Made by a program: the position numbers and the translations under genes. Source: Aporrectodea caliginosa (taxonomy: Eukaryota; Annelida; Clitellata; Crassiclitellata; Lumbricidae). Taken from it: a stretch of 64,000 nt of DNA. This document shows positions 34,946-47,475 of the stretch, piece by piece (positions within the stretch are counted from its first letter, which is position 1; each line of letters starts with the position of its first letter). Under the pieces are notes generated by a model, which did no database searches, was not told where the DNA came from, and saw only the letters and a list, made by a program, of their open reading frames with translations. The stretch covers positions 62,001-126,000 of the forward strand of contig JACEVL010000161.1 of NCBI GenBank assembly GCA_020284085.1, written 5' to 3'.

Positions 34946-37900
34946 TCACTCGATCGCGAAGCCACACGTCTCTTCAACAGCACACGTCAGTTTGTCCAGA
35001 AATTTTGTGTATGACTCGTACGGCGGTATGTCGATGCGATTGAAGCTAAAGAACAAAAGACAAATCGCTAGTTAGATACAACAATCTCCGGAAAGCAACA
35101 TTCTTTAAAATTTCATTATAATAAAAGCTTCAAAGATGCAACGTTGTGCTTTCCTTCAGAACTGTGTTCTCCTAACAAAGGACTCTGCTCAGTGCTCACA
35201 GACCTAGGTTTAGGCCTGATCCAGGAAAAGACAGTCATCAAAACAAGTTCAAAAGGATCTCATGACTTTTTATTTCCTTTCTAGGTCTTACAGGTACTAA
35301 ATTACAAAGTTAAGTGAAAGGTGCAGTCATGGGTACTTGTAACCTTCCCCAGGTTGCTATATACTATATGTTCTCTGCAAGGTAAAACAAATGGATCAAC
35401 AGATGTGAAATAAAAACTATAATATCAAAGCATAAAGTTTTAATTGATTTGAATGATATTCTTAAGCTATGGTTGACGCATGGTCAGTAATGTGCAGTTA
35501 GTCGCTTAAAGTCAGTCGCCAATCAGAGATACTCTGTGGACAAGTGCAAGATACATCTTCAGCAGCTTCTCTATCTTACCACGTGTGAGCCTCAGGCAGG
35601 CTGTCAGTGTTTGTGTCAATCTGGTGGATGATGAACAACCTCGGTCCCTGCGACCCAGTTGAACCTGCAAAATCACGCAAAGGCATTTCATACAAAGGAG
35701 CCTCTCTTCAAAAACAGCAAGTCACAGCACAACATTCAAATTCCCTTTAAACCTCAGTTGAACTGCAAGTCAGGTTCTCTAAATGCATCATAAATCACTA
35801 ACCACAATAAGCAAAGATCAATAAATACGCTGGACAGAGCTCAAAGATGGAGAACAAAACTTCAAAATCAGAGGGACAAGGTTTAAAGGTCGAGAAAAAT
35901 GAGGCAGTCAAACGTTCAAAGGCAGAACATGATGTTCAAATGTTTCTTTTCTGTGTCAACCTTAAAAGATAAGAGAAAGGTGAAAAAGGATTTATATGCG
36001 CATAGCAAGTGTGTGTTAACTGCATTTTATGTTTATGTTGTGGTGAAATAAAGAATTCCATATTATCCACATGGCATGCTTTACAGCCCAGACAGATATA
36101 CATACATAGATACAATATACATACATACATACAGACAATTAGAACAAATCCCCTAAGCAACATGATTTTGATGAACAGCGACAGAGTGAGCTTTGACCGT
36201 ACCCTGCAGTGCTTTGAACCCTTGGAGAGGAACACGTGTGCTACCAGTTACAAACTGGAGTAGACGCGACCTTCGCTCTTCGTCGAACTCCTCCACTGCC
36301 CGCCAGAACCACTTGACGATGTTCGTATCAAGAGTGCAGTTCTCTAACCACGTGTTCTTCTTCCAATCTTCAACGTCGATCTTACCGAGACCACTGATCA
36401 CCAGCTATAAAGACAAATCGATTCTTATTCCTTCACTGCTTTGTCTAATTCTAACTGGTTCTCTTAAAAGTTAAATCAGTTAGATCATTGTTATAGAATC
36501 ACTTGATCACTGTGGTCATGTCTGAATAATCTTTTGATCACATGTATGTATGTCAACACGTGTGTCACTTCACGACAGAAGGTAGCAGGCACGTGGTTAC
36601 ACATGTGACCTCAGCGCAGAACAGAGCCTTCACTCACTAGATCGACTGTAAAGTGTCAGTTCCTCTAAGACCATACACAATGAGTTTTGCCTCTAATTAA
36701 TGCGTTAGCATATCAGGCTCATATTACTACAAACTGTAGTATGCCACATGCCATATTAAGGCCAAAATCTGTTATTAATTCATTGGATACAGACAGGTTG
36801 AATTTTATGCAAATTTCCTTCAACTGATGCTTTTCATTTAGAAAACAAAATGCATAAATTTCGGAAAAAGTCCAGGATTTTTTTTAGCTCTACCTTCCTT
36901 ATGACATCCTCTTAAGGAGAACATCAGTAAGTAAATCAGAGGTGTCAACTAGTCCATTTTTCTGCTGGGGTGACATAAACAAAAACTTTAAAATCTTCCT
37001 TTTCACATCACCGACTTCCTGTTTCTGTTACAACATTAAACAGGTTCTCTTAGCCCAGAAAACCAGTAAACTTGATACGGAGCTCTCTGACAATAGCATT
37101 ACCAGAATATGCTAGCATGGCAGCAGTTTTGCCAATTTCCCATGAAATTTTCAAAATAATTATATCGTATTAGAGCAGTTTACCTCTAATTCACGTTCAT
37201 CAAATGGTCGCATCAGATGCGGAGAAATCAATTCACTGAAGCCTTTCTGCAGGGCAAGGAACTGCGCCTCGATGCCTCGCATGAAGCGCCAGTTTACGTA
37301 GAGTCTAGAAAAAATTAGATAAAATATTAGCAGAAAAACAGCACAGAGATTGTATCGTATTTAAACAGTTTTAAAGCGCCTCTAGTAGGGTGAACCATTC
37401 AGAGGCGCTCCCAGTGTGCAAAGCCACGACAGAAGAAATAGGCTTTGAGAAAAGCAAAGGAGGAGGAGGGATACCAGAAAGAATTTGAGAGCTAGTAGAT
37501 GGAGAAAGCGCATTCCAAAGAGAGGGACCGATTGAAGTAGAGGACCGGGACGGAGTCATAGCTGTTCTAGTATGAGGAACTAGAAGATTAAGTCTGTTTG
37601 AAGAGTGGAGTGGAATACACGAGGAAGGTGAAAATATGCAAATTCAAATATACAAAAGGCACATGTCAATATATGATAAAATAGTTATATCTAAATTTAT
37701 GCATAAAATAAATAAATATATATATATGAACAATAAATTGATAAAACTTTACACATAAATGCTCAAGGAAGTAATTTTCTTCTTTTCAAACATAAAACTT
37801 TCTGCTATATTATTTTAATACAATGACACTGGAAGAACTACATTACTATAGAATAAAAAATTCTATTCTTCACCAAATTTTCTACCAAAAACTATATGTA

Positions 37901-46900: not shown

Positions 46901-47475
46901 GACCTTCTGAGTGCAAGTGAATACCTAAGATATTTTTACTCAGTCTCTCATACATCTAGGTTTTACTTTACCCATTTCTGTCAATATACATAACTAAGTC
47001 CCATAAAACAGTTATTATTTTGGAGTTTTTCTTTACGTAATAAATTTCTGTAACCATTCACACTCTTCTTTAATAAAAGAGCTAGCTAGTACTTATACTC
47101 TCTTCAATAGACAGTTCTAAAGCACCAGCATTTGATTGTTCTGGAACTTACTTCCTGAGCAGCAGTCATGCGCCGCTCAGAATATTTCTATCTATTATAT
47201 CATTTACACCTTCTTACATTTGCGAATTTATGACAGTACTTCTCTGCAGCTTTGGTAATAAATTATTTAAATGATTTTGCATGAAATCTTGTTACAAAGA
47301 TATACAGAAAAAGATTTTTTTTAAAGTTATTAAAGAGACCCGAGTGTTTGAAACAAATCTTTCATAGGATTAATTACAGATATCAAAACTGACCAGCAGC
47401 ATCATTTGGGACAGTTAAATCTAGCCTCGGATTTTTGGATGGGGGTTCTGTCAAATTCTGATCATTATAATCCAT
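34946..47475 (-). CDS. TAZ1-KIX-HECT fusion: CBP/p300-like N-terminal half joined to a SMURF/NEDD4-type HECT ubiquitin ligase
   Basis: Exons: 47475-47394, 46413 to ~46090, 45377-44804, 43928-43373, 41905-41788, 41211-41017, 40480-40377, 40035-39921, 39209-39031, 38098-37961, 37304-37184, 36404-36203, 35664-35580, 35045-34946. All borders are GT-AG and in phase except the exon 2 donor, which I could not fix. The product is ~966 residues. The start [20 protein letters not shown] and [18 protein letters not shown] parallel the CBP/p300 N-terminus. A polyglutamine tract runs into TAZ1, which keeps all twelve His/Cys ligands ([42 protein letters not shown]). KIX follows ([30 protein letters not shown]), then a full [50 protein letters not shown], catalytic Cys in [13 protein letters not shown], end GFAIE. 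Bromodomain, acetyltransferase, ZZ and TAZ2 of CBP, and C2/WW domains of SMURF, are absent. Inferred role: ubiquitination of KIX/TAZ1-bound activators. An acceptor at 47,51x implies a 5' UTR exon upstream. Confidence 0.88.
37365..37630 (-). mobile_element. CR1-like LINE C-terminal fragment in intron 10 of the fusion gene
   Basis: A minus-strand frame gives [14 protein letters not shown] and [10 protein letters not shown], the usual end of CR1/L2 ORF2 (xxGPSLWNxLP). The 3' end 'ggcgctttaaaactg' points left. It is degenerate and not found at the equivalent place in the second gene copy. Confidence 0.65.
38185..38960. repeat. Local ~110 bp duplication inside a SINE, intron 9 of the fusion gene
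   Basis: The block 'catcctacatacaagacata' ... 'gaaaactagagtcgttattg' ... 'gatctagctt' at about 38,188-38,302 is repeated at about 38,668-38,772, where it splits a SINE (head at 38,600 'gacacgggttcgataccagc'; body resuming 'ctacgcctaggggctctgg', tail (ATT)n at 38,935-38,955). No coding sequence. Confidence 0.65.
39430..39870 (+). mobile_element. LINE 3' end followed by a SINE, intron 8 of the fusion gene
   Basis: A plus-strand CR1-like end ([27 protein letters not shown]; 'gagctatataaattgta') is followed at 39,680-39,870 by a tRNA-like SINE with an (ATA)n end. Both occur at the matching place in the second copy (63,225-63,675), so they were there before the duplication. Confidence 0.75.
41017..41211 (-). 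other. Fusion exon: KIX helix 3 plus HECT N-terminus in one 195 bp exon
   Basis: The exon reads 65 codons in phase 0. It opens with [18 protein letters not shown] and [11 protein letters not shown] (CBP KIX: EYYHLLAEK...ELEEKRRTR). After NNTLPQKM it continues [17 protein letters not shown] and EVSRKEIFE (SMURF/NEDD4: LKVLRxEL..PQAGHCRIEVSREEIFE). No stop, frameshift or splice signal separates the two parts, so the join is at the DNA level and does not depend on a gene-prediction choice. Confidence 0.92.
41218..43372. other. Introns 4 and 5 of the fusion gene outside exon 41905-41788
   Basis: The only recognisable content is a decayed LINE end near 42,700-42,830 (plus strand, [13 protein letters not shown]) and a short CR1-like stretch near 42,950-43,080. 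I searched for extra CBP-like (bromodomain, acetyltransferase) or SMURF-like (WW) exons here and recognised none. Confidence 0.5.
44985..45355 (-). repeat. CAG/CTG-rich polyglutamine-coding repeat in exon 3 of the fusion gene
   Basis: On the minus strand this encodes a long run of Gln broken by Leu and occasional His, Pro or Asn, immediately before the TAZ1 segment [17 protein letters not shown]. Gln is encoded by a mix of CAG and CAA, which points to a maintained coding tract and not a pure microsatellite. The antisense Ala/Val-rich frame on the plus strand is a shadow. Confidence 0.9.

Follow-up and report, generated by a model that had tools for sequence, protein, structure and literature searches.

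The window analysed here is a stretch of 64,000 nucleotides (nt) from the genome of Aporrectodea caliginosa (1.098 Gb in 4,544 contigs; window C160:62001-126000), and its main feature is a fusion gene on the minus strand, in which the front half of a CBP-type coactivator is joined to the HECT domain of a SMURF-type ubiquitin ligase. The gene consists of 14 exons running from 47,475 to 34,946, which when joined give 2,820 nt and a predicted protein of 939 amino acids (aa); the joined frame holds no internal stops, and GT-AG boundaries are present at 13/13 introns as placed. An earlier reading of this DNA from its letters and open reading frames (the sequence-only reading) had proposed a single set of minus-strand exons with these two ends, encoding in order a CBP-type N-terminus, a polyglutamine (polyQ) tract, TAZ1, KIX and a complete HECT domain, and that structure was recovered here in full.

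Comparison of the joined protein with Pfam gave matches to zf-TAZ at residues 252-327 (E 3.9e-16), KIX at 471-547 (E 1.5e-25) and HECT at 632-938 (E 2.7e-93), the KIX match spanning positions 5-81 of the 81-position model and being accompanied by matches to two weaker KIX-like models. Pfam detected no bromodomain, histone acetyltransferase (HAT) domain, second TAZ, C2 or WW domain in the joined protein, and no HAT_KAT11 or second TAZ match was found anywhere on contig C160 (the bromodomain was sought in the joined protein only). A search of solved structures, in which the best 60 of 95 matches were considered, aligned residues 558-939 with SMURF2 (E 5.6e-210) and residues 241-336 with CBP TAZ1 (E 3.4e-33). 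On alignment, Cys or His was kept at 12/12 of the TAZ1 positions which we take to be the zinc ligands, and the HECT domain together with its pre-HECT helix, which is retained in the fusion, was identical to human SMURF2 at 294 of 378 residues. The cysteine at residue 907 aligns with SMURF2 C716, presumably the catalytic residue. On the twelve zinc ligands and on a complete HECT domain with its catalytic cysteine, the sequence-only reading was therefore correct.

The CBP-type part of the gene begins at an ATG at 47,475 in exon 1 (47,394-47,475), which has 90% nucleotide identity to exon 1 of the CBP paralog on contig C125, and continues through exon 2 (46,163-46,413), also of CBP N-terminal type. 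Exon 3 (44,804-45,377) encodes the polyQ tract and the first part of TAZ1, and exon 4 (43,373-43,928) encodes the end of TAZ1, a linker and the start of KIX; these exons are 82% and 85% identical to C125, respectively, with identical splice sites. The middle of KIX is encoded by exon 5 (41,788-41,905; 83% to C125) and its end by the first part of exon 6 (41,017-41,211), the fusion exon. The HECT domain starts in exon 7 (40,377-40,480), which is 95% identical to a SMURF gene on the same contig (copy 3), and its N-lobe occupies exon 8 (39,921-40,035), exon 9 (39,031-39,209) and exon 10 (37,961-38,098). Exon 11 (37,184-37,304) and exon 12 (36,203-36,404) carry further HECT sequence, and exon 13 (35,580-35,664) encodes C-lobe sequence and ends two bases into the catalytic Cys codon. 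The last intron thus interrupts this codon, and exon 14 (34,946-35,045) supplies its third base, the residues FNR and those that follow, and the stop. A polyadenylation-like AATAAA lies on the same strand 109 nt past the stop (34,831-34,836); the hexamer also occurs within the gene, for example at 41,178, 39,411 and 35,274.

The change from CBP to SMURF sequence was found to lie inside exon 6. Nucleotides 1-102 of this exon correspond to exon 6 of the C125 paralog (88%) and nucleotides 96-195 to the pre-HECT exon of SMURF copy 3 (85%), so that the end of KIX runs to 41,113 and the SMURF pre-HECT helix starts at 41,112. The switch is in frame and falls at the start of the helix with which the crystallised SMURF2 HECT construct 1zvd begins. 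This placement within one exon (41,211-41,017), like the presence of both parents and of a sister copy in the same genome, goes beyond what the sequence-only reading had described, and it rules out two adjacent genes for KIX and HECT in place of one. On the CBP side, from 48,097 to 41,110, piecewise alignments to C125 take in the introns and about 0.6 kb of 5' flanking sequence, and on the SMURF side (34,908-41,116) there are piecewise alignments to copy 3, introns included. Splice positions are those of the parents (C125 for exons 1 to the first part of 6, copy 3 for the remainder of 6 to exon 14), with the exception of the end of exon 2. Because intron sequence from either parent is still alignable in the fusion, a genomic CBP segment must have joined a genomic SMURF segment, and a retrotransposed origin was ruled out for both halves. 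A DNA search of the whole genome with 501 bases around exon 6, which scored its best candidates only, returned five places, namely the fusion itself, C125, copy 3 and two partial exons of a second fusion copy (copy 2), all of them on C160 or C125.

Exon 2 is the one part of the gene whose boundary is uncertain. The corresponding exon of the parent is approximately 1.8 kb long and asparagine/serine-rich (C125:1,056,611-1,058,234), and the fusion exon lacks its 3' part together with the native donor, for which reason the donor chosen here is a guess. Scored with a donor matrix, the chosen GT at 46,162 reaches 4.9, an in-frame rival at 46,393 reaches 5.9 and a frame-breaking site at 46,226 reaches 6.3. 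Use of the last site would put exon 3 and everything after it out of frame, except if the ATG at the start of exon 3 (45,377) serves as the start codon; TAZ1, KIX and HECT could all be read from that ATG. Both fusion copies have a donor-like GTAACT near window position 46,090; the parent sequence there reads GTGACC. Upstream of exon 1, the 5' flank of the fusion (47,476-48,097, minus strand) aligns in pieces, at 78-83%, to the 5' flanking sequence of its CBP parent (C125:1054034-1055229), and the CBP promoter region was therefore probably copied as well.

The sequence-only reading had called for normal CBP/p300 and SMURF genes to be sought in this genome, and both were found. KIX matches occur at seven loci genome-wide, of which the seventh is the fusion and the other six (C647, C81, C503, C125, C2426 and C4543) each show HAT and two TAZ matches in addition, so that CBPs with both ends exist in the genome. 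Six CBP loci are unusually many for an invertebrate, as invertebrates usually carry one. A further CBP-like locus (C66:351-358 kb) has HAT and one TAZ match and no KIX match, and may represent the back half of a CBP, complementing the front half that the fusion contains. SMURF copy 3 (C160:171-156 kb) lies 47 kb upstream of the fusion and matches Capitella SMURF across C2, WW and HECT exons (tblastn; C2 and WW exons at C160:169.1-163.3 kb), its HECT exons joining into an open frame. More SMURF-like HECT exons were seen at C433:287.7-292.5 kb (up to 79% identical to Capitella SMURF in the stretches compared) and at C540:233.6-236.3 kb (up to 57%).

Copy 2, a decayed sister of the fusion, occupies C160:145.0-120.3 kb, between copy 3 and the fusion. 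Its HECT exons, of which exon 7 lacks one base, enter the window on the minus strand (58,267-64,000, from 58.3 kb, the copy continuing to C160:145 kb), and outside the window it has CBP exons 1 and 2 and two partial fusion exons with the junction, at C160:128,283-128,464 (L046) and C160:126,988-127,151 (L048). As each of these holds CBP and SMURF parts, the fusion exon was probably duplicated within copy 2. No TAZ1 or KIX match was obtained in copy 2 (tblastn, E up to 1). In a HECT tree, the fusion and copy 2 were sisters (98/90) and grouped with copy 3 (100/98); the next relative was the leech Helobdella (91/84, below the method's own support mark), and 9 of 13 inner branches were left open. 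The simplest history is one fusion, followed by tandem duplication and decay of one copy. A second fusion elsewhere in the genome was not found, the six other KIX loci all having HAT and the junction DNA, among the best candidates scored, being confined to C160 and C125.

The reading frame of the fusion has been kept. Where exons 1, 2 and 4-14 could be aligned with the parents, no gap shifted the frame. Leaving aside the polyQ exon, which varies in length, and the loss of the 3' part of exon 2, the only coding gap was one of 9 nt in exon 4, while alignable introns show a divergence of 0.16-0.18 from the parents and 23-30 indel openings per kb. A neutral simulation, which started from the living parents and assumed branch lengths of 0.10-0.137 and 0.07-0.10, led to an expected 3.6-4.7 stops for the CBP part, with a probability of 0.035-0.007 of seeing none, and to 2.9-4.0 for HECT (probability of none 0.049-0.015); 0 were observed in either. 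Three-way counts over 371 HECT codons (21 with several changes were excluded) assigned 19 synonymous and 12 nonsynonymous changes to the fusion branch after its split from copy 2 (omega approximately 0.22; P 3.5e-5 against neutrality), 19 and 23 to the copy 2 branch (omega approximately 0.42; P 0.007) and 17 and 6 to the SMURF branch (omega approximately 0.12). The HECT domain has thus been under purifying selection after the fusion. The signs of a dead pseudogene (stops, frameshifts, a neutral HECT pattern) were absent, and the substitution pattern in TAZ1 and KIX is not clearly constrained. Pairwise dN/dS by NG86 was 0.18 for HECT (0.11 for the first 250 codons, 0.41 for the rest), 0.53 for the CBP part and 0.45 for the linker; YN00 gave higher values of 0.29, 0.87 and 1.0, respectively, and 1.1 for KIX (no TAZ1 value).

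The binding surfaces of KIX were compared using the contact lists in PMC3305381, mapped by eye to mouse numbering. In the CREB/c-Myb groove, 6/12 contacts are changed in the fusion (L599Q, K606R, A610K, Y650F, I657L and Y658N) compared to 0/12 in the parent CBP, which makes CREB and Myb unlikely clients, and loss of binding to both is predicted. According to PMC9814494, Y658A in KIX abolishes formation of the pKID complex, and Y650A/A654Q/Y658A is a CBP KIX mutant used in mice (PMC3858336). The MLL groove differs in the fusion at 3/12 positions (F612Y, shared with the parent, Y631F and I660M), with 9/12 kept, and in the parent at 2/12 (F612Y and N627S), so that binding on the MLL face by the fusion KIX is possible. 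Clients of TAZ1 given in PMC12547938 include HIF-1alpha, CITED2, STAT2, RelA, p53 and beta-catenin, and such clients are possible for the fusion.

Taken together, we consider it probable, with modest confidence, that the gene encodes a functional chimeric E3 ligase in which TAZ1 and the MLL face of KIX would hold activation domains and HECT would likely ubiquitinate these or their partners. A copied 5' segment of CBP, introns and probably the promoter included, would have inserted into a duplicate SMURF gene, immediately before the structural HECT unit, removing the SMURF C2 and WW domains. In SMURF2 the HECT domain is held inactive by C2, according to PMC7808752; with C2 and WW gone, the fusion should escape C2-mediated autoinhibition and should have its substrates chosen by the CBP part, through TAZ1 and the MLL face of KIX. 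C907 would accept ubiquitin from an E2 enzyme and pass it on. Judging by the altered CREB/Myb groove, phospho-CREB and Myb appear to have been lost as clients of the ligase, and likelier targets would be HIF-, CITED2-, STAT2-, RelA- or p53-like clients of TAZ1 along with clients of the MLL face; as a side effect, the fusion would compete with full CBP for the same activators. The dedicated ligase for CBP-bound factors put forward by the sequence-only reading accordingly agrees with the anatomy and with the constraint on HECT, while its CREB and Myb part does not stand well with the altered groove. A more specific version is offered tentatively, as a possibility falling somewhat short of probable: the gene may be a natural, germline 'targeted degrader', in which a SMURF HECT on a CBP front removes CBP's own transcription factors, with KIX re-tuned from CREB/Myb to MLL-face and TAZ1 clients.

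Several observations weigh against a functional ligase that selects clients through its CBP part. The native donor of exon 2 is deleted and the top-scoring donor remaining in that exon (46,226) breaks the frame; copy 2 has no recognisable TAZ1 or KIX exons and carries a frameshift, and its HECT nevertheless also rejects neutrality, the fusion and copy 2 branches not being significantly different (Fisher P 0.24). TAZ1 and KIX evolve fast (pairwise NG86 dN/dS 0.49 and 0.77), and 31/37 polarised residue changes in them fall on the fusion branch (fusion to parent 17:3 in KIX, which has 24 differences in all, and 14:3 in TAZ1). Within HECT, pairwise dN/dS reaches 0.41 (NG86) or 0.73 (YN00) in the C-terminal part, and 23 polarised changes lie on the fusion branch compared to 2 on the SMURF branch (4 ambiguous; one outgroup species). 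The fusion has an arginine where SMURF2 has H547, which we take to be a residue of the E2 pocket, and this substitution calls for caution over the predicted fit of an E2. Finally, the fusion is known solely from the DNA of one genome. Because both binding domains evolve fast, client binding by TAZ1 and KIX may be relaxed or lost; the two domains are either relaxed or re-tuned.

If they are relaxed, the chimera, probably under a copied CBP promoter, might be useful for its HECT domain as a C2-less and WW-less SMURF expressed in the CBP pattern, with TAZ1 and KIX no longer binding activators. The constraint on HECT after the copies split, the apparent relaxation of TAZ1 and KIX, the copied 5' flank and the HECT omega of copy 2, which has lost any recognisable TAZ1 and KIX, all agree with such a history, which we nevertheless regard as unlikely: the frame across the CBP part remains open with no stop or frameshift, all twelve zinc-ligand positions are occupied, and the residues of the MLL face are mostly kept (9/12), one of the three that differ being common to the parent. 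The decay of the sister copy (even if its HECT too rejects neutrality), the fast evolution on the fusion branch and the truncation of exon 2 would also suit a recently dead or dying gene whose open frame is a functionless remnant. That account is improbable in view of the rejection of neutrality for the fusion HECT and of a frame free of stops and frameshifts despite intron divergence of approximately 0.17. It is quite improbable, too, that the protein acts mainly as a dominant-negative competitor, occupying activators or MLL-type factors and so blocking full CBP, with HECT serving mainly for self-turnover; the binding half of CBP is present without HAT, bromodomain or second TAZ, and six other CBP loci are available to compete with, but HECT is the best conserved part, which is unexpected if catalysis on clients is unimportant. 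An artefact of assembly or annotation, two genes having been mistakenly joined, was set aside as exceedingly remote, since the switch falls within one exon and copy 2, on the same contig, has two occurrences of this junction, diverged by 23-26%. A misassembly across 40-46 kb, which the sequence-only reading had named as one way in which its proposal could fail, is largely answered by this sister copy, without recourse to reads.

Other features of the window and genome were also recorded. Retrotransposon-like frames lie at 6,992-9,373 (minus strand), 13,693-14,478 (plus strand) and 57,225-57,887 (plus strand); a reverse transcriptase was matched by Pfam at 8,084-9,373, and the others were recognised by eye, with no Pfam match above cut-off. 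Across seven long frames of the window other than the fusion, Pfam matches were limited to this reverse transcriptase and two weak ones under the cut-offs. Downstream of the fusion and on the same strand is an open frame of 348 aa (29,487-30,533, minus strand) with no Pfam family, and self-alignment revealed a tandem array with a period of approximately 61 bp at 50,962-51,457. Elsewhere in the genome, C14:18,193-19,107 encodes a HECT domain in a single open frame (599 aa), intronless over that stretch, which is possibly a retrocopy or the HECT of a mobile element.

The novelty of the architecture was assessed by protein searches over 5.8 billion proteins, covering those of 0.55-1.75 times the query length and considering the best 120 of 7,960 matches (with scoring confined to the 7,977 candidates sharing most words), 16 of 16 matches and the best 120 of 479 matches. 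No protein with TAZ1 or KIX together with HECT was present among the matches listed; of the 256 proteins concerned only 16 (P0121-P0136) match the fusion KIX, and 0/16 have HECT (Pfam). Nor was a description of such a protein among the papers listed by searches of an open-licence library, the broader of which covered titles and the openings of abstracts, and a word search of the main text of a survey of animal HECT ligases (PMC2837046) returned no mention of KIX, TAZ or CBP. As far as these searches extend, the view of the sequence-only reading that the architecture is undescribed holds.

CBP/p300 is a hub for many activators, and HECT ligases of the NEDD4 type are usually directed by C2 and WW domains. 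The fusion is a HECT E3 with a new substrate module, both halves of which come from known families. It resembles CBP/p300 (KAT3) in its N-terminus, polyQ tract, TAZ1, KIX and intron positions, its parent being the C125 paralog, and differs in that a HECT domain follows where bromodomain, HAT and second TAZ follow in CBP/p300. With SMURF1 and SMURF2 (NEDD4 family, C2-WW-HECT) it shares the pre-HECT helix, the whole HECT domain, the catalytic cysteine and the splice sites, whereas their C2 and WW domains are replaced by TAZ1-KIX. A cytoplasmic ubiquitin-ligase activity of CBP/p300 itself on p53 has been reported, mentioned beside a noncanonical RING and not a HECT domain in PMC12547938. Among the listed proteins, P0134 of Caenorhabditis nigoni likewise has TAZ1 and a KIX fragment joined to a non-HAT part; that part consists of homeobox domains and no ligase, its KIX match covers the end only, and we infer it to be another chimera of the CBP front half, produced by an unrelated event.

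If the favoured interpretation of a functional ligase is true, placing the binding half of a hub on the catalytic half of a ligase would turn an 'activate' address into a 'remove' address. As one genome holds the two parents, the decayed sister and the junction to the exact nucleotide, the locus is a dissectable case of a possible new ligase specificity arising by fusion within an exon. A functional fusion would also be a natural counterpart to engineered targeted degraders. Among these, bioPROTACs couple a binding module to a catalytic module taken from a different protein. KAT6A-CBP fusions and HECT domains retargeted through a foreign binding part (PMC2940739) follow the same principle; these engineered and oncogenic chimeras are products of the laboratory or of tumours, whereas the fusion described here belongs to an animal genome assembly, where it has a sister copy in tandem.

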